Of a stretch of 64,000 nucleotides of DNA, positions 1 through 13,411 are shown piece by piece; positions within the stretch are counted from its first letter, which is position 1; each line of letters begins with the position of its first letter. Location: contig NZ_FNPB01000006.1 in the NCBI RefSeq assembly GCF_900107195.1, forward strand, positions 1 to 64,000. Reading direction: 5' to 3'. Both the position numbers and the translations under genes were made by a program. This stretch comes from Halobellus clavatus. GTDB taxonomy: Archaea > Halobacteriota > Halobacteria > Halobacteriales > Haloferacaceae. The notes under the pieces are model-generated. The model was given only the letters and a program-made list of their open reading frames with translations, did no database searches and had not been told where the DNA came from.

Positions 1-339
1 CTGAAGACACAGTACGAACTGGACAAGTTCGACACGAGCGACCCGGATGTCGTGAAGATTCTGTTGTACGCGGCGTTGCTGTCACTGCTGGTGAGTCGTG
101 ATCTGTTGGGTCTGGTCACCGAGCAGGCCGCCGATGAAATCGTGTTTCCGCCGGAACGCTGGGCGGCGACCTTCCGGTCGCACGCCCAGCTCATCCTCCA
201 CGAACTCGGCGAGTTCCTCGGCTACTCGCCACCGCCACTGCTGGAGCGACTGATCGAAGACGCACAGAAGATCCACCAACAACGACCGATCCTGCAAGAG
301 ACGCTCGCTACCGCTACGCAACCGAGGTGTGAGTCTTAG
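1..339 (+). CDS. IS4-family (ISH8-type) transposase, C-terminal part
   Basis: The window opens inside this gene and the reading frame is open from base 1, so only the last 112 codons are visible. They match the tail of haloarchaeal ISH8-type IS4 transposases: LKTQYELDKFD at the very start, the hydrophobic run LLYAALLSLLVSRDLL, then PPERWAATFRSHAQLIL and the ending TLATATQPRCES. In this family the catalytic Glu lies in a conserved segment just before the visible part, and the two Asp residues lie further upstream, so the active site is off-window. The element sits directly against the broken methyltransferase that follows. Whether the off-window part is intact cannot be judged. Confidence 0.85.
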   Translation: MKTQYELDKFDTSDPDVVKILLYAALLSLLVSRDLLGLVTEQAADEIVFPPERWAATFRSHAQLILHELGEFLGYSPPPLLERLIEDAQKIHQQRPILQETLATATQPRCES

Positions 340-352
340 CTAAAGACGAATG
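1..352 (+). mobile_element. ISH8-type insertion sequence, right end
   Basis: This is the downstream end of the element encoding the transposase. After the transposase stop (337-339) comes a short near-palindrome, GTCTT-agcta-AAGAC (333-347), then GAATG, after which the methyltransferase frame is open. I infer that the terminal inverted repeat ends at about 350-352, because element-like sequence stops there and foreign coding sequence starts. The matching left end and the target-site duplication are outside the window, so the exact boundary is uncertain by a few bases. Confidence 0.6.
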
Positions 353-2350
353 GATCTGGTAGAGGTGACCGATGACGGTGATGCAGCACTTACGAATTGG
401 GGTGGTGGAGTCGGAACCGGAGTTAGGGAACTCTACGAAGATGTTATCAAACAAATTGAACGCCACCAGAATGCTACTAGTGCTACTGAAGCACAGAATG
501 CACGCAAAACCGCAGAATCCCTTGTTGAGACACATAGCCGTGAATTAAACGAGAAGGTACTGGAGCAGTTCCACGCTGCTGGGTTGAAAGAAGTTGATGC
601 AGAGAAGGTGCAGGATTTCAGCCCGTTCCATTGGGTGCTCGAATTCGCACCGGTGTACGAGGATGGTGGATTCGACGTAATCATAGGAAACCCCCCATGG
701 GACAGAATCAAACCACTCCGTGATGACTACTTCTCAAAATTCGATGAGACGTTCCGGACACGTCTCCCAGACGACAAGGACAGAGTGCAGGAAGAACTCC
801 TCACAGACGATGAGATTGCGGAAGGGTGGCAGGAATACCAAGACGAAATGGAGCTCCGGGCTGAGTACTTCAAGAACACTCCTGCATATAACCTACAACG
901 ACCGGTGATTGATGGTAGGGTCAACCCAAGCACAAACGATCTTTCATCTCTTTTCTTCGAACGGGTCTTCGAGCTTGCCGGTGATTCCTCTCGTGTCGCC
1001 CAAATTCTTCCCGGTGCGATCTTCAATGGAGCGTCAGGCAAAGACCTACGAACCCATCTGTTGAATAATACTACCCTCGATGTACTCACAATCTTTGAGA
1101 ATCACGGTATTTTCAAAGGGGTTGATGATCGATACAAATTCGGTGTAGTAGTATTCAAAAACAGCGGTTCAACAGAGTATGTTTCAGGCAAATACGAGGC
1201 AGGTAATCTCTCTATTTTTAACAATTTTGATGAAAAGGCGATCAAAATCCCACGCGATGTGCTTGAATCGTACTCTCCCGAAGCAGGCATCTTCCCGTAT
1301 ATCGAATCAGAACACAAACTCCGTGTCCTAGAATCGATTATTGATAACCCACCAATCGCACCAGAGGGTGCCCCAACCGGGTATATGGAGCCGTATCAGG
1401 GACTCCGCCGAACGAGTGATGCAGACCGTTTCGTAGATAAGTCAGAAGCTGACTACCCCGTCTACGGTGGTAAGAATATATACCAATATTCGTACACCCC
1501 CGAGTTTATAAATGACGTAGAGGAACCCGAATTTTGGAGCGTCGAAGAAGAGAAAGATCCTGATCGAAGTGCCAAACAGCGGATGCGGGAGAAGACGGTG
1601 CGTGATCTCAAATCGGCCATTTACGAAGCTTTCGACGGCACCGGATCTCAGAAGGGATTCGTCAATGATCTACTGAAGCAACATCGAGGAAAGCCTCTCT
1701 CCGAAGATGACGTTCTCTTAGACTGTACGGAGTATCGAATTGGTATTCGACGGATTACGAACTCTACCAACGAACGTACCCTCATCGCATCGGTACTTCC
1801 GAAGGGAATCGTTTGTCACAATACATTGCTGACTATACCGAGCTACCTGATTCAGCCATACGAAGAGGGACTATCCGAAGATCCGCTCCATAACTTCTAT
1901 GAGCGGATGTTTTCGGATGAAGAGTTGTTTGCTAAGCTTGGTTTGCTCAACTCAATTCCGCTTGACTACCTTCTTAGGACCAAAGTAGACACCGGCATTG
2001 TGATGTACAAGTTCAAAGAGTCACAGATGCCTGATCTCTCCAAGGATGATAACTGGTTCCACTACATCTCTGAACGGGCTGCTCAGCTGAGTTGCTACGG
2101 TGATGAATTCGCTGAGATGCGCGACCGTTTGGGCGGAGTTGATCCCGTGACCACTCAAAAAGAAAGGCGAGAACTACAGGCCGAGATTGATGCAGCAGCC
2201 TTCCACGCCTATGGACTGGAACAAGACGAAGTACAATTCGTGCTTGATGACTTCCACAGAGTAACGAATCCTCGTATTATGAACGAGAACTACTTTGAAA
2301 TGGTCTCTGAAAAGTTCGACATACTGGATCAAGAAGGTCCGATGCTGTAG
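350..2350 (+). pseudogene. Eco57I-type DNA adenine methyltransferase, N-terminus lost to IS insertion
   Basis: The readable frame gives 666 residues of an N6-adenine DNA methyltransferase of the Eco57I/PglX kind. The catalytic motif IV is present (IIGNPPWDRIK, NPPW at residues 114-117), followed by a long C-terminal target-recognition region (YPVYGGKNIYQYSY at ~375-390 and beyond). Family members are usually around 1000 residues or more and carry the SAM-binding motif I (DPACGSG-like) upstream of NPPW. Nothing like it is present in residues 1-113. The apparent ATG at 350 lies in the putative inverted repeat of the adjoining IS, and the frame is closed by a TAA at 341-343. So this is most likely the 3' part of a gene split by the IS, with the 5' part beyond the left edge. 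It probably cannot methylate DNA as it stands. It converges on the helicase gene, 23 bases apart. Base composition is more AT-rich than the rest of the window. Confidence 0.85.
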
Positions 2351-2373: not shown

Positions 2374-5300
2374 TTAATGTCCCACGACACCCCAGCACAT
2401 CAGTCGAGCCTGAACTTCGCTTTCTCCTACTAACTTGGCCTGATACTCGGTAGATGCCTCTACGTTCTCTTCTAAGAATGCCTCAAGCTCTTCCAGGAAC
2501 TCGACGGGGGGCCATTCTGTGAATGAATCATACTGTTCGTTATGACGGAATATATCCCTGAGAATCTGATCTTCATCAGTGTTCGCCAATTTCACGTCAC
2601 GGAGTCGCTCGTGGAGATCGGTAGCCCATTCTTCAAGCGTTGCGTGCTCCTCTATGGGAGCAGACGTTTCACCGTGGTTTGGTAGTAGGTAGTGATCAAT
2701 AAAGTCCAGAATCGTTTCCTGCTCTTTTGAGAATTTATTCCCTTGCTTGAATATCTCCTCTGTCTGACTGCTCCGGATCGCTTCCAAGCGGTCATCAAGA
2801 ACTTGCTGAATTGCGTCTCGGTCTGCCAGCACGTTTTCGGTGCTTCCGGTGATCGGTTCACCGTCTACCGTTGGGTCGATCTTGAGCGTACTCACAGGAC
2901 GTTCTTTCACGTCGTCAGCGAACGGTTTGTAGTAGAATGCCCGCCGAACACGCCCGAGCGGTGACTCGTGGTCGTCATCGTCGAACCAGAGATGTGCGAG
3001 CCCGAACACACCGGGTCTCGGACCAGAATCATGGTTGGTGACGTTCGTGTACAGGAAGTCTCGTTCCGCTGGTGGGGTGCCGAAGTAGTCTTGCGCGTAT
3101 TCGAAGTCGTCCTCTGTGAGCCCGAAGTCCTCGTTCAGTTCTTGCTTCAGTAGGTACCGTTCGAATGCGGCGTTTTCGTTACTCCCAGCGTTCCGGAGTA
3201 GCGGATTCTTGCTCGTGTCGTCGAGTTCGTTCACGTCCTCGATGTCACGAGATTTCTTGAGTGAATCCTCGATTTCGTCGATCTGTAACTCTCCGATCGT
3301 CTTCTCCGTCTCAACACCGGCCTGGTTGAGTAGCTGATCCTCATTCGGATCAAGGATGTTATTCTCCTTTCCGACGATCAACGCAATGTCGTTGATTTTC
3401 GCCTGCAAGCGTTCCAGAAGTTTAATCGCAGCCTCAATATCACCGTCGGGGTAGAAGTTGTGAACGTGTTTTTCGGCGGTACTCCCGATGCGGTCGATCC
3501 GACCGACTCGCTGAACGATCCGCATAGGGTTCCACGGCAGGTCATATGATACTTGAACTGATACATCTTGAAGATTGACACCTTCAGACAGTGTGTCGGT
3601 TGCAACGACGTACTGGAGCTCTGATTCATCGGTCTCCGCAAGCGTCTGTTGGTACCCGGATGCTTCAGGAGCGAACCGCTGTATCACGTCCTGTTTATTC
3701 TCGTCACCGCCTTTGACGACTGCACTATTCGCATCTGTTAGCGGCGAATCCGGATTCGTCAGGAGTGTACGGTAGACGTAATCGGCTGTTGCTCGGTACT
3801 GTGTGAAGATGAGTACCTTCTCATCATCATATCTATTGAGTACGTCCGCGAGTCGGTCGATCTTCGGGTCACGGAACTCGCGTAGTGAAAACACGGCTTC
3901 GTAGAAGTCACGGGTGGCTGCATCAACATCGCTCAGGTCACTCTGTGGGTACAGAATCGGATTCAACTTGTCCTCGGGAACATCCGGGAGAACACCCGCA
4001 TTGTGATCATACAGCCACTGACGTGTGGTGACAGCGTGATCGCTCACGTCACCAGCATCCCGTGCAACGTCCCCGATGAACTGCGAGAGGAAATACGCGA
4101 GTAGCGTCAGATCTTCTCGGATGTACGTCTTCACGTCACCGATCGTCGCGTCTGCTAACTCGTCCGCGTCCGCACTCTCTCCGGCATTCTCGGCTTGAAC
4201 AGTAGTGGTATCAAATCCGAACTCTTCCAGCGTCTGTTCGAGATCCTCTGCAGCATCTTTCCCTTCGACGAAATCGCCAATCGTTTCGGATTCATCGCCG
4301 TCCTGAATCGTTCGCAGCATATCGATCTTCTCGTCCTCAGGAAGCCCATCCAGTAATCCCAGGAGCTGGCGTTCGCTCTCATGAAGTGTCTCAATAGATT
4401 GGACGAAGGCGTACGTTGAGGATTCCAGTCGCTTCAGCAGATTCAGTTTGTACAGGGCTTTCAGTGTGCTGCCGGCTTTCGGGTTCTTTACCGTAATGTG
4501 CGGCAAATGGAGTGCGTCCATCACGTCCGGCAACATCTGGTACACGGGTTGATAGGCCGGTGGGAGTGAGTACTCTTGTTTGTAGAGCTTCGGGGGTTCG
4601 AAACTCATCTCGAAGTCCTCATCCTCTTGGACTTGGTCCTTGACGTGTGTCCGTGTCCGCAGTACCATTACTTCATTGAGGATGTCCGAGATCTCCTCGG
4701 AGTGGCGCTGTAAGTCCTTATTGATCTGTTTCTGTTCTTCGTCAGTCACCTCTTCTTTTCCAGCAGCGATCTGCTTCCGCGTCTCCGACAGGTCGATGTA
4801 CTCGTCGAATGCATCGAAATCAAGCGATGTCTTGTTCCGGATCTCTTCAGGACTCGTGAAGAGACTGATGAGGTTCTTCAGGTCAGTAGCGCTGTTGTTG
4901 ATCGGCGTCGCGGTCAGCATGATCATCGTCTTCCCCCGGAGCTGTCGCAGGTTCGCGTGCCGACGCGTTCCCTTGTAGTCGTCATCGTGATCCGGATCCG
5001 GTCGCCACTTTCCGAAATTCCGGAACCGGTGAGCCTCGTCAATGAGCAGTACGTCGAACGCGTCTTTGAGCCCCTGTACCTCATCGAAAGTGAGATTCTG
5101 GAATTTGCTGATACTCATCACATCAAGGTGCGTGCCATCCACCTCTAACCCGAAGTACGGGTTCCCATCTTCGTCGGTATCGTCTTCGAGCAGGTCTTCC
5201 CACTGGTCAGTGAGGTTCGCAGGAACGATGAGCAGGCAGCGATCACCGCGTTGTCGGTAGTCGTGCAGGAGTTCTCCGCCGATGAATGATTTGCCAAGAC

Positions 5301-6189
5301 CGACTGAGTCAGAGATGATACAGCCGTTGAATTGGGAGAGTTTCTCTTTAGCGCTCTCGTACCCGAGTTTTTGGAAGTAGTAGAGCGGGCTGTCACGAAC
5401 GGTGACGTTCCCGTTTAGTTCGTCGTAGGCGAGGAGCTTGTACAACTCGAACGGTTCGAGGTAAGTTCCAAGTTCATCGTCCGACTCTTCCTCTCCATCT
5501 CCGGTGTCATCGTCTTGCTGCTCTTTCCACTCTTGGTATTCGGTGCTGTTTTCGATGATTCGGATGATCTCTTCGCTGAAGTCTTCGGCATTCGCCCATT
5601 GGTTATCATACCATTTCTCGAAGGCTTCGGCCTCGCGGCGCTCTTGACTCGTGAGATTCAGTTCGATATTGTTGCGATGCCCGCTCGCAGTGAAGTTTGA
5701 CGATCCGACAACGGTTGCACAGGCACGGGTATCTGTATCGTCCTCTCCCCAGCCATCGTCTTCGGGTGGGGCTCTGAACGATGCACCCTTGGCGTGGAAG
5801 TAGCCGTGTTCTGGGTTTCGCACACGGACGTTGACCTTGTCTTCTGCTATAAAGTCGCGGAGCCGATCAAGTCGGTCGATCTGTGCATTGTTCAGCTCCG
5901 AAATACTCTCCCGTACTTCGTCCTTGAGTTCTTCCCGTAGGTTCTTTCCCTCGCTAATTTCGTCGGCAGTACTCCTGTCCGTCTGTCGCCCCATCAGGAT
6001 CCGAAGTGGTGCGTGGCCGAGTTCTTCGGGATCTGCAAGTTGTTCGAGATCTTCGCGGTAGAGGTCAAACCCGGAGAGGTAGAAATACCCCGTTGCGATG
6101 CGAGCTTCTTCGATCTGGGGGATGATCTTCTTGTAGATGTCCTCAAGTGTCCTATCAGTGTTATCAACGAGTGGGGGGAGAGAAAGCAT
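2374..6189 (-). CDS. PLD nuclease-SNF2/DEAH helicase fusion protein
   Basis: A predicted 1271-residue DNA-defence ATPase. The N-terminus is a phospholipase-D-type nuclease half-site: YFHAKG gives the HxK motif (H132, K134) and VGSSNF (~162-166) the downstream GSxN. An acidic linker (~225-245) leads to a superfamily 2 helicase of the SNF2 class, with Walker A SVGLGKS (~295-301), DEAH box LLIDEAH (~381-387), motif III LTATPINNS (~425-433) and motif VI QRVGRIDRIGS (~893). I chose the ATG at 6187-6189; a TTG four codons upstream is less likely. The gene follows the HsdR_N-type nuclease gene by 84 bases on the same strand, probably one operon, and converges on the broken methyltransferase. Established: PLD and SNF2 modules occur together in phage-defence loci such as DISARM, though usually on separate proteins. 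The role in restricting foreign DNA is inferred from domains and neighbours. Confidence 0.85.
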   Translation of the reverse strand: MLSLPPLVDNTDRTLEDIYKKIIPQIEEARIATGYFYLSGFDLYREDLEQLADPEELGHAPLRILMGRQTDRSTADEISEGKNLREELKDEVRESISELNNAQIDRLDRLRDFIAEDKVNVRVRNPEHGYFHAKGASFRAPPEDDGWGEDDTDTRACATVVGSSNFTASGHRNNIELNLTSQERREAEAFEKWYDNQWANAEDFSEEIIRIIENSTEYQEWKEQQDDDTGDGEEESDDELGTYLEPFELYKLLAYDELNGNVTVRDSPLYYFQKLGYESAKEKLSQFNGCIISDSVGLGKSFIGGELLHDYRQRGDRCLLIVPANLTDQWEDLLEDDTDEDGNPYFGLEVDGTHLDVMSISKFQNLTFDEVQGLKDAFDVLLIDEAHRFRNFGKWRPDPDHDDDYKGTRRHANLRQLRGKTMIMLTATPINNSATDLKNLISLFTSPEEIRNKTSLDFDAFDEYIDLSETRKQIAAGKEEVTDEEQKQINKDLQRHSEEISDILNEVMVLRTRTHVKDQVQEDEDFEMSFEPPKLYKQEYSLPPAYQPVYQMLPDVMDALHLPHITVKNPKAGSTLKALYKLNLLKRLESSTYAFVQSIETLHESERQLLGLLDGLPEDEKIDMLRTIQDGDESETIGDFVEGKDAAEDLEQTLEEFGFDTTTVQAENAGESADADELADATIGDVKTYIREDLTLLAYFLSQFIGDVARDAGDVSDHAVTTRQWLYDHNAGVLPDVPEDKLNPILYPQSDLSDVDAATRDFYEAVFSLREFRDPKIDRLADVLNRYDDEKVLIFTQYRATADYVYRTLLTNPDSPLTDANSAVVKGGDENKQDVIQRFAPEASGYQQTLAETDESELQYVVATDTLSEGVNLQDVSVQVSYDLPWNPMRIVQRVGRIDRIGSTAEKHVHNFYPDGDIEAAIKLLERLQAKINDIALIVGKENNILDPNEDQLLNQAGVETEKTIGELQIDEIEDSLKKSRDIEDVNELDDTSKNPLLRNAGSNENAAFERYLLKQELNEDFGLTEDDFEYAQDYFGTPPAERDFLYTNVTNHDSGPRPGVFGLAHLWFDDDDHESPLGRVRRAFYYKPFADDVKERPVSTLKIDPTVDGEPITGSTENVLADRDAIQQVLDDRLEAIRSSQTEEIFKQGNKFSKEQETILDFIDHYLLPNHGETSAPIEEHATLEEWATDLHERLRDVKLANTDEDQILRDIFRHNEQYDSFTEWPPVEFLEELEAFLEENVEASTEYQAKLVGESEVQARLMCWGVVGH

Positions 6190-6273
6190 CGTGTTACCCA
6201 ATTTAACCGGCAGTTTGACTTAGTAGTTAGCACAGAACATCTCGTGGTCTTTCAGTGAAAACAGATCAGAGGA

Positions 6274-7452
6274 TTAGAGCATATCGTCAGTCGTCTCTGC
6301 TGTCCGGAGCGCTCCGAGTGTCGTATACTGGAGCGACTGGGGATACTTCGTTTCGTAGGGAACCGGATCTTCCAATTCGTATAGGCTACCTTCCTCAAAG
6401 ACCACTACCTGCTGGTCAGGGTCGAATCCGGCTTGAGCTTCGTCGGACGCCGATTCAAAGTATGCTTCACGGGGACGAGCGAGATCTGCCTCGGTGGCTG
6501 GGACTATATCACTGACACGAGCAACGTATTTTATTTCTCGTACATCTTCAGAGAGGTACATCGCCACATATTCTGGATTCTGACCGATACGGACGAACCC
6601 CCAAGCATTGTTTTCACGCAGGAACTCCAGACCCGATCTTTTCGTAGGGAAGACCGCTACTTTGGCGTCGTTGTCGCCCTCAAATTCACTGCGCTTGATT
6701 CGTCCTACGATGTGGCTGTCTACTGGGTCAGGACCAGGATCACCAGTCCCACCGTCTTTCGGAGATTCAGTGCTACCATCAGCGTCTATTTCAGACTCAA
6801 TATCCGCGACGAGTCGGTCAATCATTTCCTTAGCCTGCGTTTCCGCAAGCGACGAGATAGCGTCCGAAACCTCATCAGCCAGCACGTTCGAGAGTTCAAC
6901 CGCCAAGTCGTCCTTTTCGAATTCAAGGGTACGACGGGCTTCCCGGAGTTCATTGATTCTACCAAGGATTTTCCCAGACTCCCCCGACTCGATGGCGTCC
7001 TTCTCGAAGGCTTTCACCACTGCGAGACGGTTGGGAAGGTCTTCGAGGGCTATGTCACCGACCTGCTGAACATTCACGTTCGAGGCGTCAACCCGACGCT
7101 GAAAGAAACGGTACTGCTTCCCGTTCGTCAAAATTCCGTAGTTGACGTTCTTGTTCATCATATAGGACGAGAGTTGTTCGTCGTGGTCCGCCGTTAGGGC
7201 GGTGTCCGCCCCTTTGGCTTCGAGGAAGGCGACCGGTGTTCCGTCGAGAATCAACGCATAATCGACCTTATACGTCTGTCCAAACGCTTCGACAGAGTAT
7301 TCGAGTTGGGTATTCTGTGGGATCTGCCAGTCGAGTAGGTCCAAAAAGTCACGCAAGATGGCGGCCTTCGTGTTGGCCTCATCCATTTGGGGAGAGGCTT
7401 CAAGAACAGCGTCAGATTGTTTCACATAGTCCCTAACAGCGTCCCTATTCAT
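6274..7452 (-). CDS. HsdR_N-type restriction nuclease with C-terminal PUA/EVE-like domain
   Basis: A 392-residue protein whose first ~150 residues match the N-terminal nuclease domain of type I restriction R subunits. The PD-(D/E)xK site reads VDYALILDG then FLEAKGAD (D64, E78, K80), and a QxxxY motif follows (Q93, Y97), as in HsdR. There is no helicase domain; the SNF2 helicase encoded next could supply that activity. A helical stretch (~160-225) and an acidic linker lead to a C-terminal ~150-residue domain. Its pattern, WGFVRIGQNPEYVAMYLSE followed by IKYVARVSDI, looks to me like a PUA/EVE-type fold, a class that can bind modified bases; that assignment is inference. ATG at 7450-7452. It is first in the probable operon with the helicase. 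Composition is AT-rich, like the rest of the island. Confidence 0.85.
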   Translation of the reverse strand: MNRDAVRDYVKQSDAVLEASPQMDEANTKAAILRDFLDLLDWQIPQNTQLEYSVEAFGQTYKVDYALILDGTPVAFLEAKGADTALTADHDEQLSSYMMNKNVNYGILTNGKQYRFFQRRVDASNVNVQQVGDIALEDLPNRLAVVKAFEKDAIESGESGKILGRINELREARRTLEFEKDDLAVELSNVLADEVSDAISSLAETQAKEMIDRLVADIESEIDADGSTESPKDGGTGDPGPDPVDSHIVGRIKRSEFEGDNDAKVAVFPTKRSGLEFLRENNAWGFVRIGQNPEYVAMYLSEDVREIKYVARVSDIVPATEADLARPREAYFESASDEAQAGFDPDQQVVVFEEGSLYELEDPVPYETKYPQSLQYTTLGALRTAETTDDML

Positions 7453-7830: not shown

Positions 7831-7905
7831 TGGGCGCTGCAGGATTTGAACCCGCGACAACTTGGTCCGAAGCCAAGCACTCTGTCCAAACTGAGCTAAG
7901 CGCCC
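7831..7905 (-). tRNA. tRNA-Arg (anticodon UCG)
   Basis: A complete cloverleaf on the minus strand: acceptor stem GGGCGCT paired with AGCGCCC, discriminator A (7831), anticodon stem CTTGG/CCAAG around the loop CTTCGGA, which places UCG at 7868-7870, and a T arm with GGTTCAAATCC. It reads CGA codons (and other CGN codons depending on modification). No intron is present and the terminal CCA is not encoded, as is usual for haloarchaea. The 3' end points towards the defence genes, the orientation expected if the gene serves as an integration site. Confidence 0.95.
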
Positions 7906-9992: not shown

Positions 9993-11408
9993 ATGGTCTC
10001 CGCGGACGACGGATCTGCAGCCGACGCCTCCAGTGACGACTCACTCCGCAGTGGGGTCGGCCGACGGCTCACTCGGCGGCGACTCCTCCTCGCCGGCGGC
10101 GTGGCCCTCGGCGCGTGGGGAGTGGGTCGAATGCGGACGGCGGCGCCAACGGCGACGGCCACACCGGACGGAACCTGGCCCGTCGCCGACCGTGACGCCA
10201 CGCGAACGAGTGCCGCCCGAGGCGCGACGCCGCCGAGCGCGCCATCCGTGGCGTGGCGACAGCGCCCGGTCCCCGCGGTCGACTCGCTCGTCGTCGGCCC
10301 CGAGCAGGTCTACGTCGGGAGCCAACGGCGCGACAATCGGGCGCCGCAGGTCGCCGCCCTCGCCAGAGACGACGGGACAGTCCAGTGGACCGAGCAGGCT
10401 CCGGGGACGCGTCTCGCGTACGCCGACGGCGCTGTGTACGCCACTGGAACCGCCGCAGACGAGCGCGACACCGACGACCGGGAACCGCCGTACGGGTCCG
10501 TGGCTCGACTCGACGCCACGACGGGTGAGACACGCTGGCGACGGCCGGTCCGGGACCGTGGCGAACGACTCCTCCTCTCTCGGCGGACGGTCTACGTGGG
10601 CAGTCACTCCGGTCTCGAGGCCGTGAGCCGCGACAGCGGCCGTCGGGTGTTCCGCGGGCAGACGTGGGGCGCGCCGACCACGCCGCTCCTCGTCGACGGG
10701 TCGCTCGTCCTTACTGGCGGCCGGGTCGGCAAATACGGCGCACGCCGGTGGAGCGAAGTCGTCCGCAAGCAGGTACCGACTCCAGTCTGGACGCGGAATC
10801 CGGTGGGCTACACGCTCGATCCGGCTGTCGTCACAGACGCGACTTCGGGATCGGAGCTGATCGCGACCGGCACACTGGGGATGTACAACGACGACGTACA
10901 GACAGTGCGTGCGCACGCGCTCTCGGACGGAACACGGCGATGGACCGCGGTGGATGCGGCGTCACGTGCTGATCCCACGGTTGTCAAGGAACTCTGTGCG
11001 GCTGAACACCGCCTGTTCCACGCCCTCCGAACCGGGACCGACGCACAGCGGCGGCGTGCGCTCGTCTGTCGGGAGGCGACGACCGGCACTCTGCAGTGGC
11101 GCGCGTCGTTCTCGAACTGGCTCCGGGCCGTCGTGGTCGCCGGTGATCTGGTGCTGGCGGGGACCCGGTGGGACGGTGTCAGCCCAGCGGGACCCGGTGA
11201 GGTCGAAGCGGGTGCGAGCACCGACGACACGCCGCCACCGGGGCGCGTCACGGCCTTCACGCTCGACGGCGATGTCCGCTGGCGGGTGCCGATCTCGGGG
11301 TCCGTCGCGCACGTCGTGCCAGTCGCCAACCGGGTGTTCGTCGGAACCGACGATGCGAGTTACGGCGGCCGGACGGCGCGTCCCGGTCAGGTGATCGCGC
11401 TGGAGTGA
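9993..11408 (+). CDS. PQQ-repeat beta-propeller protein, Tat-exported
   Basis: A 471-residue secreted protein. The N-terminus carries a twin-arginine signal (RRLTRRRLLLAGG followed by a hydrophobic segment, ~25-48). The rest is built of PQQ/BamB-like blades with repeated G-x-VYVGS, VAALARDDGTVQW and VARLDATTGETRW motifs, which form an eight-bladed or similar propeller. No enzymatic residues are evident, so a scaffold or binding role outside the membrane is likely. The ATG at 9993 fits the signal peptide; a TATA-like TTATT lies at 9966-9970, 23-27 bases upstream. Confidence 0.8.
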   Translation: MVSADDGSAADASSDDSLRSGVGRRLTRRRLLLAGGVALGAWGVGRMRTAAPTATATPDGTWPVADRDATRTSAARGATPPSAPSVAWRQRPVPAVDSLVVGPEQVYVGSQRRDNRAPQVAALARDDGTVQWTEQAPGTRLAYADGAVYATGTAADERDTDDREPPYGSVARLDATTGETRWRRPVRDRGERLLLSRRTVYVGSHSGLEAVSRDSGRRVFRGQTWGAPTTPLLVDGSLVLTGGRVGKYGARRWSEVVRKQVPTPVWTRNPVGYTLDPAVVTDATSGSELIATGTLGMYNDDVQTVRAHALSDGTRRWTAVDAASRADPTVVKELCAAEHRLFHALRTGTDAQRRRALVCREATTGTLQWRASFSNWLRAVVVAGDLVLAGTRWDGVSPAGPGEVEAGASTDDTPPPGRVTAFTLDGDVRWRVPISGSVAHVVPVANRVFVGTDDASYGGRTARPGQVIALE

Positions 11409-11477
11409 GTACACTCGCCCGCCGAGACACAGGGCCTCATCGCGGTGCTTTTGGGTGGCCCGGGCGAACGTGGCGGT

Positions 11478-11951
11478 ATGAGCGCCCGCAACGACATCCC
11501 GCCGGACACTGTCGGGGTCGAACTCCTCGATCACGGCGTGGAAGTCGAATACATCGACGGCCGGACGACGCTGTACCGAGGAGTGCCCGAACCCGTCACC
11601 GACACGCTCACCACCCCACCAAAGAAGGAGACTCACGTCCTCGTGACTGACCCGACAGAGACCGAGGGCGTGATGCTCTACGTGAACGATCTGAAGACCC
11701 ACGACGACGTCCTCGAATCGACGGGCGTCGGCCGGGTCATCCTCGACGAAGGCGAGGAGGAGGAACTCTTCCCGGGCGTCGCCGTCCGACGCCTCGGCGG
11801 GATGCGGACCGAGATCGAGGCCGACCCCGAGACCGCTCGCGGCCGCGTGTTCGTCTTCGTCGAGGACGACTGGAGCGAGTCGTCCTACGAATTTGTGACC
11901 GAGAGCGAGGCCGCCGATCGCGACGACGCTGCGGCCGCTGGCGAGGACTGA
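11478..11951 (+). CDS. DUF5796 family protein
   Basis: A 157-residue cytoplasmic protein matching a family I know only from haloarchaea (DUF5796), with VELLDHGVEVEYIDGRTTLY near the start and VNDLKTHDDVLESTGVGRVI in the middle. It is acidic, mostly beta by appearance, and its function is unknown. ATG at 11478 chosen over an upstream in-frame codon because conservation begins at SARND. The stop shares a base with the start of the next gene (TGATG), indicating an operon. Confidence 0.82.
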   Translation: MSARNDIPPDTVGVELLDHGVEVEYIDGRTTLYRGVPEPVTDTLTTPPKKETHVLVTDPTETEGVMLYVNDLKTHDDVLESTGVGRVILDEGEEEELFPGVAVRRLGGMRTEIEADPETARGRVFVFVEDDWSESSYEFVTESEAADRDDAAAAGED

Positions 11952-12181
11952 TGGCGCTCAGGAAGGCGTGGCGCTCGCTCGATCGGGGGACCGTCGGTCG
12001 CGCACCGGACGCCTACGGACTCGTCGAGTTCGGTGACGGGGAAGGCACCGTCATCGAGGCGAAAGCGGGCCTCCTGCCCGATCTGCTCCGCGAGGAACTG
12101 GCTTACGGCGATGCCGAACAGGTCCGCTGGAAGCGGGCGCAGTCGGACGCGCATGCGCACCAGTTGCTCGAAGAGCGCTGA
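11951..12181 (+). CDS. Small conserved haloarchaeal protein
   Basis: A 76-residue protein (ALRKAWRSLDRGTVGRAPDAY...) with one base of overlap with the DUF5796 gene, so co-translated with it. The middle (AYGLVEFGDGEGTVIEAKAG) resembles a short beta-hairpin domain and the end is a charged helix. I recognise it as a recurrent small haloarchaeal protein found beside DUF5796 but know no function. Confidence 0.75.
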   Translation: MALRKAWRSLDRGTVGRAPDAYGLVEFGDGEGTVIEAKAGLLPDLLREELAYGDAEQVRWKRAQSDAHAHQLLEER

Positions 12182-12200
12182 GCGGCGACGTCGCCCGGTT

Positions 12201-12250
12201 CGTCAGCGAACGTCAGTGAACGTCAGCGAACGTCGGCGAACGTCAGCGAA
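12201..12250. repeat. Five tandem copies of a 10-bp unit
   Basis: CGTCAGCGAA is repeated five times head to tail with single-base changes in copies 2 (CGTCAGTGAA) and 4 (CGTCGGCGAA). It lies in the 93-base gap between the convergent small-protein and DR2241 genes, so it is not coding. Confidence 0.9.
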
Positions 12251-12274
12251 CCGATCGGGACGGAGGCCGGCCAC

Positions 12275-13411
12275 TCAGTGGTCGTCGTGCTCGGCCGCGT
12301 TGGCTTCCTCGTGGTCGTCGGGGTGCGTCGGCGTCCCCGAGAGGTTCCCCTCGTCGTCGAACCGCTTCGACCGGAGGAAGCGCGCCCGGTATCGGTTCGC
12401 TCCCTCGTACACGTCGGCCTCGCGGATCTCTTCGACCCGGCCGTCGGCGACGGAGTCGACGATCTCCTCGAGTTGTTCCTTTTCGGAGGGCGTGAGTTCG
12501 AACTCGTACGTGTGGGTCTCTTCTTCTTCGAGCTTAGTCCACTTCCGCGCGGCGGCGACCACGAGCGAACACGGTTCCCGACACGGGAACGTCCCGGTTC
12601 CCCCGTCGGCTTCGAGTTCGTCGCCCTCGTCGTACTGCCACTCGCGGCGCTTGAGGCACTGTGAGTCCACGCAGCACGCCGACGCGACCCACTCGACCCC
12701 CTCACGGGGCAGTTCCTCGATGACGTCGTAGATGCCGGTCTGCCGTTCGGCGGTCTCCCGCCAGTGGGTCACGTCCAGTTCGCCTTCGCGCTCGCGGTTC
12801 CAGTTGGCGATCGAGGCGGGGTAGAGCACGTCGAGCGTCTCGACGGCGTCGCGCCCGTCGAGATCCGGGAAGACCCAGCCCGACACGAGCGACGGGGCGG
12901 TCTTCAGTGGGCGGTAGCGACCGCGGTCGTCGTAGGTCGCGAGCTCCCGGGCGTCGAGCGGGTCGTCGTAGGCGTCGAGGTGCTCGGCGTCGGTGCCGGC
13001 GTCGTCCTCGTGCCGCACGTGGTACCGCCGTTCGCCGTCCTCGCCCAGCGTCGCGGTGATCAGCACCTCGCCCCACGCAGTTTCCATTCCGTCTCGAAGC
13101 GCGTCGTAGCGTTCGGGGACGGGGTGCTTCTCGGCCGCCTCCGCGTGCCGGAGGAACGCTCGACGGTGCCGTCCGCTGTCGCCGACGGTGACCTGCCAGT
13201 AGTACCAGTTCGTCACGTACGGAGCGAGGTCTTCGGTGAGCGCCTCCCGGAACTCGGATTCGGTGAGTCCCTCGTGGTCGACTTCCGTACCGTCGATCGC
13301 GAGCGCGTATCCGTCTTCGGTCGCATCCGCGTGGAGACCGTCGAAAGCGACCGGGTCGTCGGTCACTCGCTCGACGAGGGCGTCCAGTTGGTCGTCCCGC
13401 ACGTCAGTCAC
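12275..13411 (-). CDS. DR2241-family protein, partner of CbiX
   Basis: A 378-residue protein of the DR2241 family, often found next to or fused with CbiX chelatases in cobalamin loci. Four cysteines near residue 243-283 (ASACCVDSQCLKR and FPCREPCS) form a probable 4Fe-4S ligand set, matching the ferredoxin-like region known in this family. The tail is histidine- and acid-rich (HPDDHEEANAAEHDDH), suggestive of metal handling. The start is a GTG at 13409-13411, inside the end of the cbiX gene (8-base overlap), so the two are translated together. The exact biochemical role is not established. Confidence 0.85.
   Translation of the reverse strand: MTDVRDDQLDALVERVTDDPVAFDGLHADATEDGYALAIDGTEVDHEGLTESEFREALTEDLAPYVTNWYYWQVTVGDSGRHRRAFLRHAEAAEKHPVPERYDALRDGMETAWGEVLITATLGEDGERRYHVRHEDDAGTDAEHLDAYDDPLDARELATYDDRGRYRPLKTAPSLVSGWVFPDLDGRDAVETLDVLYPASIANWNREREGELDVTHWRETAERQTGIYDVIEELPREGVEWVASACCVDSQCLKRREWQYDEGDELEADGGTGTFPCREPCSLVVAAARKWTKLEEEETHTYEFELTPSEKEQLEEIVDSVADGRVEEIREADVYEGANRYRARFLRSKRFDDEGNLSGTPTHPDDHEEANAAEHDDH

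Follow-up and report, generated by a model that had tools for sequence, protein, structure and literature searches.

The window, the whole 64-kb stretch of DNA analysed here, covers positions 1-64000 of contig C15 (G000:C15), one of the 30 contigs in the genome of the haloarchaeon Halobellus clavatus. At its contig-edge end, three genes lie between the remnant of an insertion element and a tRNA gene (Table 1). The HsdR_N and PLD-SNF2 genes share a strand and are separated by a 72-bp gap. Both open reading frames lie where the earlier note had placed them, and its description of a PLD-SNF2 fusion with all its motifs and an HsdR_N nuclease without a helicase was confirmed by Pfam and by alignments.

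Table 1. Features at the contig-edge end of the window.
Feature	Position	Strand	Evidence or remark
3' end of an IS4-family (ISHma1-like) element with transposase C-terminus	1..345	+	The contig starts within it, at base 1
Truncated Eco57I/Type IIG-like adenine methyltransferase	346..2350	+	Pfam Eco57I, E 2.5e-17; convergent with the PLD-SNF2 gene
PLD nuclease-SNF2 helicase fusion, intact	2374..6201	-	Pfam; PADLOC C3a139 'HKD+Snf2', E 9e-81
HsdR_N-type PD-(D/E)XK nuclease-like protein without a helicase	6274..7452	-	Pfam HSDR_N_2/HSDR_N, E 1e-8
tRNA-Arg gene flanking the defence genes (island edge)	7831..7905	-	ARAGORN

The PLD-SNF2 gene encodes 1275 residues, in which Pfam placed PLDc_2 at residues 33-202, a SNF2-rel_dom/ResIII domain, and Helicase_C at 780-906. 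Across 50 homologues, the PLD motifs (H136-x-K138 and G166-S-S-N169) are invariant, as are the helicase motifs GLGKS (301-305), DEAH (388) and TATP (430-433) and the motif VI arginines. The reading frame opens with a TTG; an ATG at 6189, 12 bases further in, matches the start in relatives and is likely the true start. A PDB sequence search with the protein returned helicase matches only (RapA and other SNF2/DEAD-type proteins), and one with the methyltransferase returned none. The sequence closest to PLD-SNF2, at 93% identity, comes from locus L047, on a contig (PUKE01000032.1) that was assigned by binning to a Nitriliruptoria bacterium and is probably misbinned haloarchaeal DNA.

We surveyed the neighbourhoods of PLD-SNF2 homologues in a first set of 19 loci from named species plus the window, and in a census of 391 genomes of the class, 45 of which held a PLD-SNF2 match at the threshold used (one a fragment only). 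Throughout the first set, window included, the PLD-SNF2 gene adjoins a methyltransferase gene. Overall, a ~1200-residue Eco57I-type adenine methyltransferase lies beside PLD-SNF2 in 49 of 50 haloarchaeal loci, counting the window, and the lone locus without one sits on a 7.5-kb contig. An integrase gene lies near PLD-SNF2 in 13 of the 50. Beyond these, no neighbour was conserved across most of the 50 loci, save open reading frames opposite in strand to the system's own genes. On a plasmid of the cyanobacterium Synechocystis PCC 7339, a PLD-SNF2 gene lies ~3 kb from a related methyltransferase gene, so the pairing may extend to bacteria. In a distant clade (L102, L103 and L104; 58-60% PLD-SNF2 identity), methyltransferase genes lie on both sides of PLD-SNF2, all in one direction, and no integrase was found in the fetched stretches. 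TIR-domain genes lie upstream of PLD-SNF2 in L035 and L149, joined in L035 by a gene for an 8xMP membrane protein, which suggests that some two-cassette loci (described below) belong to a wider defence cluster.

The methyltransferase of the window is a fragment. It corresponds to residues ~545-1217 only, aligning to residues 541-1216 of the full-length protein of L034 and 546-1202 of that of L047; it keeps the NPPW motif and the C-terminal recognition region, and lacks the first ~545 residues together with SAM motif I (DPAVGSGAF). The missing N-terminus was not found elsewhere in the assembly with either the whole methyltransferase or its first 434 residues as query. The transposase part abutting the fragment is 91-93% identical to annotated IS4 transposases, and the other copies of the element in this genome all stop at the position of base 345. 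With the N-terminus removed by the IS4 element, restriction and modification are probably off in the window copy. In the close relative G220, the methyltransferase lies in two pieces on separate contigs; the contig ends have 68 bases in common that do not belong to the methyltransferase, which points to another insertion there.

The earlier note had seen no specificity subunit at the locus. No HsdS-like neighbour is conserved, and the note had overlooked the convergent methyltransferase fragment, which lies outside the positions that it covered and is the likely carrier of specificity. To judge from its variable recognition region in the C-terminal half, the methyltransferase is most likely the subunit that had been missed. 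We propose that the two genes form an ATP-dependent restriction-modification system, equipped in about a third of carriers with a recombinase-linked specificity switch, and we regard this as the likely reading of the locus family. The methyltransferase would recognise and methylate a target and so supply specificity, and PLD-SNF2 would act as translocase and nuclease, cutting DNA that carries unmethylated targets. Probably the methyltransferase recruits it or forms a complex with it, in the way of Type I or Type ISP enzymes. We infer this partnership, and the restriction of DNA itself, from the pairing and the domain content. The window would then contain a damaged, probably inactive copy of a two-gene haloarchaeal system.

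Two other divisions of labour between these proteins were weighed. PLD-SNF2 could be a modification-dependent nuclease of a Type IV-like kind, comparable to SauUSI, an enzyme with an N-terminal PLD domain and an SF2 helicase that cleaves modified DNA (PMC7913695, PMC12707154); the adjoining methyltransferase would then act separately. The intact PLD-SNF2 frames of the window and G220, kept despite interrupted methyltransferases, speak for this. An intact frame beside a destroyed methyltransferase in the window also fits a nuclease that needs its methyltransferase, although a recent loss would look identical. In 49 of 50 loci, PLD-SNF2 is paired with a methyltransferase of variable specificity, which argues against independent action, and a Pfam search detected no reader domain in the PLD-SNF2 C-terminus, where the AlphaFold model is of low quality; we consider a Type IV-like nuclease improbable.

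The second possibility is a self-contained Type IIG methyltransferase that also supplies the nuclease, with PLD-SNF2 as an accessory anti-phage helicase. The best PADLOC matches of the methyltransferase are indeed Type IIG REase-MTase models. Yet across 45 N-terminal parts, no D-ExK residues are invariant within the first 140 positions (the AlphaFold fold there is of low confidence), whereas the PLD catalytic residues are invariant. The PLD domain is therefore most likely the nuclease, and a self-sufficient Type IIG enzyme is unlikely. We return to the two-gene restriction-modification system as the preferred reading.

The methyltransferase side of the locus takes a second form in many relatives. 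In five loci of the first set, two methyltransferase genes stand head to head, one full (~1200 residues) and one headless (~770 residues), followed by a Phage_integrase gene. This two-cassette state with its tyrosine-recombinase gene occurs in about 16 of the 45 carrier genomes, roughly one third. In 11 census genomes the locus and its integrase lie on one contig (G180, G219, G026, G383, G231, G375, G198, G148, G293, G088 and G296); five others (G338, G159, G123, G302 and G283) hold an integrase of the same family with the locus pieces split or rearranged, and are less certain in the count of 16. By a quick tree method, two-cassette loci spread over more than one clade of the PLD-SNF2 tree. 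The two cassettes of a locus carry the NPPW motif and are 80-90% identical at their start and ~30-60% identical in their variable middle. Between inverted repeats within both cassettes lies an invertible segment of ~1.47 kb that holds the start region, the N-terminus and SAM motif I.

Both orientations of this segment were found. The N-terminal part is joined to the distal cassette in L061, L064, L065, L067, L069, L075 and L076, and to the proximal cassette in L059, L066, L071, L072 and L073. L034 and L035 are collinear outside the segment and inverted inside it, and the Halorubrum genomes G198 and G148 share flanks of ~99% identity around a middle of opposite orientation. The closest pair, L065 and L066, lies on a single Halorussus vallis plasmid record (NZ_CP100003.1; G383:C4), where the two copies are 99.97-100% identical over 17.3 kb save for the inverted middle. 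The ends of this record, 1-46181 and 121285-167465 (~46.2 kb), match at 99.9% or more. Although the record is labelled complete, it most simply represents a circular plasmid of ~121 kb with an overlap left uncollapsed, the two ends having caught different orientations; a true 46-kb duplication would likewise mean that both orientations occur within one genome.

The Halorussus aquaticus plasmid NZ_CP100403.1 holds two two-cassette copies, L039 and L044, in the same orientation with switch regions 99.8% identical, and the PLD-SNF2 and methyltransferase frames of L044 are interrupted. In L068 (G375; matching NZ_CP084475.1 of Natrinema sp. DC36), the inter-arm stretch at ~10635-13114 measures 2480 bp, is ~90% self-complementary and contains N-terminal fragments in both orientations; its distal cassette is interrupted, and an IS6 transposase is annotated in the matching record.

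In the larger clade, the crossover falls in a 54-bp inverted repeat just past SAM motif I (DPAVGSGAFLL, residues 415-425). The two arms of one locus match at 52-54 of 54 positions, as against only ~138 of the adjoining 200 bp, and locus-specific substitutions are common to both arms, as expected if the arms keep recombining. In a second clade (L059, L061 and L067), the exact shared stretch lies elsewhere, in the GVDIDQGAVEICK coding region, and spans 38-80 bp. Several draft contigs end exactly at an arm (L032, L049, G338, G159 and G123): the two contig ends of G338 share a 55-bp arm. In G338 and G123 the opposite end of the contig carries an integrase gene, and in G159 one stands at the beginning of the facing contig. 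Such breaks are supporting evidence only, because a 54-bp repeat can by itself break a short-read assembly. A search for the arm pattern in viral contigs gave no match.

The recombinase is a Phage_integrase protein with its R, K, HxxR, W and Y residues visible. Its gene is present in two-cassette loci and absent from single-cassette loci; the frame is interrupted in G283 and G123. The inverted repeats, both orientations and the linked recombinase are features of relatives, and not of the window copy, which has a broken methyltransferase, no switch and no adjoining integrase. An integrase-like gene elsewhere in the genome of the window (G000:C27, 41%) was rejected as a counterpart; its neighbours are unrelated, and the 3.6 kb inspected contained no inverted repeat.

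Genome comparison establishes the gene content, the two orientations, the repeat identity and the association with a recombinase. In the mechanism that we propose, inversion between the identical repeats would join the N-terminal segment to one or the other C-terminal cassette, and the tyrosine recombinase encoded beside the distal cassette is the likely invertase. As the locus could encode no more than one complete methyltransferase at any moment, inversion is expected to alter specificity; cells with a two-cassette locus thus appear able to change the target sequence of both protection and attack. The head-to-head cassettes might instead be a fixed duplication, with the orientations as old rearrangements and not an active switch, and a single orientation is indeed seen in all deposited assemblies but one. 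A fixed state fits poorly with both orientations on one plasmid record otherwise 99.9% identical over 46 kb, with arm identity maintained within loci, and with a recombinase gene tied to the two-cassette state, and we judge it quite unlikely beside an active switch.

The remaining gene of the window, that for the HsdR_N protein, encodes 392 residues with HSDR_N domains only and no helicase. Its VDYAL...FxEAK...QxxxY residues are largely conserved in 31 relatives, and its C-terminal ~150 residues (matches cover ~245-391) also occur alone in short open reading frames of other haloarchaea. The earlier note had joined this gene to PLD-SNF2 as a two-gene operon. The two genes are adjacent in only three of the 50 loci (the window, G220 and G046), and L047, with the PLD-SNF2 closest to that of the window, lacks the HsdR_N neighbour. 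Conversely, the ~6-8 kb surrounding the gene in 14 other close relatives of HsdR_N, where the contig allows, revealed no orthologous PLD-SNF2. In haloarchaea, then, the two genes are usually apart, the very pattern that the note had said would refute the operon. A two-nuclease defence operon is very unlikely on these counts, even though the same-strand adjacency in the window recurs in G220 and G046 and is not one recent accident, since the PLD-SNF2 and HsdR_N trees alike place G046 in another clade than the window and G220. By the neighbourhoods surveyed, the HsdR_N gene is an optional neighbour that the system does not consistently include.

Among bacteria, the phase variation of restriction and methylation is well documented. 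We found no archaeal case in the literature searched, whose incomplete coverage means that this is not proof of absence, and an inversion survey that included six archaeal data sets reported no inversions in those (PMC5903667). If the switch works, individual haloarchaeal cultures would contain cells that differ in DNA methylation and virus resistance, with consequences for transformation, for studies of viruses and their hosts, and for how archaeal methylomes are read. The two-gene layout would also offer a compact PLD-SNF2 restriction system whose putative function is directly testable.

Finally, we compared the system with those already named. As the earlier note had suspected of a restriction system at this locus, the PLD-SNF2 system fits none in the model libraries at their cut-offs. 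The nearest by content are the Type-2 BREX-related (BR) systems, which comprise a DUF499 ATPase, an N6-MTase, an HKD-Swi2/Snf2 helicase and DUF3780 (PMC12839542). Both have an N-terminal HKD/PLD nuclease fused to a Swi2/Snf2 helicase plus an adenine methyltransferase, and C3a139 is the best PADLOC match. However, DUF499 (PF04465) is absent from 22 of 30 carrier genomes, that of the window included, and never lies beside the locus in the other eight; the haloarchaeal methyltransferase is of Eco57I/Type IIG type, and no third gene is conserved in the 50 loci. Membership was rejected for want of DUF499 and a third conserved neighbour. With DISARM the system has in common a SNF2 helicase (DrmD-like), a PLD domain and a DrmMI-like methyltransferase, but neither DrmA nor DrmB is a conserved neighbour in the 50 loci, and DISARM was rejected; the DrmD model NF038317 gave 131.5 bits where its cut-off is 610. 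Likewise, NF042964, the NCBIfam equivalog for a PLD anti-phage protein, scored 142.8 bits, against the 1100 required.

Among restriction enzymes, the predicted parts (nuclease, SF2 motor, methyltransferase and recognition domain) are those of Type ISP (LlaBIII-like) and Type I systems, except that here they are divided between two convergent genes and PLD replaces the Mrr/HsdR nuclease. Assignment to Type I itself was rejected, as the HsdR_N protein has no helicase and no HsdS-like neighbour is conserved. ATP-dependent restriction with a helicase-like ATPase, which we infer for the haloarchaeal system, is also known from CglI/NgoAVII (PMC5737866, PMC4267653) and SauUSI (PMC7913695). CglI and NgoAVII keep nuclease and ATPase in separate genes (PMC5737866, PMC4267653), whereas SauUSI, like PLD-SNF2, holds PLD and helicase in one chain but is modification-dependent.

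The switch has its own parallels. BREX type 1 of Lactobacillus rhamnosus carries a duplicated pglX, one full (1198 residues) and one partial (743 residues), with a site-specific integrase (PMC7513527), a design shared by the haloarchaeal pair of 1217 and ~769 residues. There, the integrase lies between the methyltransferase genes, in a bacterium with BREX core genes; here, it lies outside the cassettes, in a haloarchaeal host with a PLD-SNF2 effector. At the pneumococcal cod locus, inversions in hsdS by the tyrosine recombinase PsrA change methylation specificity (PMC7096588, PMC11709252); the haloarchaeal inversion is likewise recombinase-linked and would have the same effect. Unlike that Type I system with its separate HsdS, the haloarchaeal methyltransferase is itself split, between motif I and motif IV. 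On balance, the locus family is somewhat more likely than not a phase-variable haloarchaeal system distinct from those named, in which a PLD-SNF2 effector would work with a methyltransferase whose N-terminal half, SAM motif I included, would be flipped between two recognition cassettes by its own small tyrosine recombinase; this archaeal invertible specificity switch would have no fewer than two crossover positions across clades.
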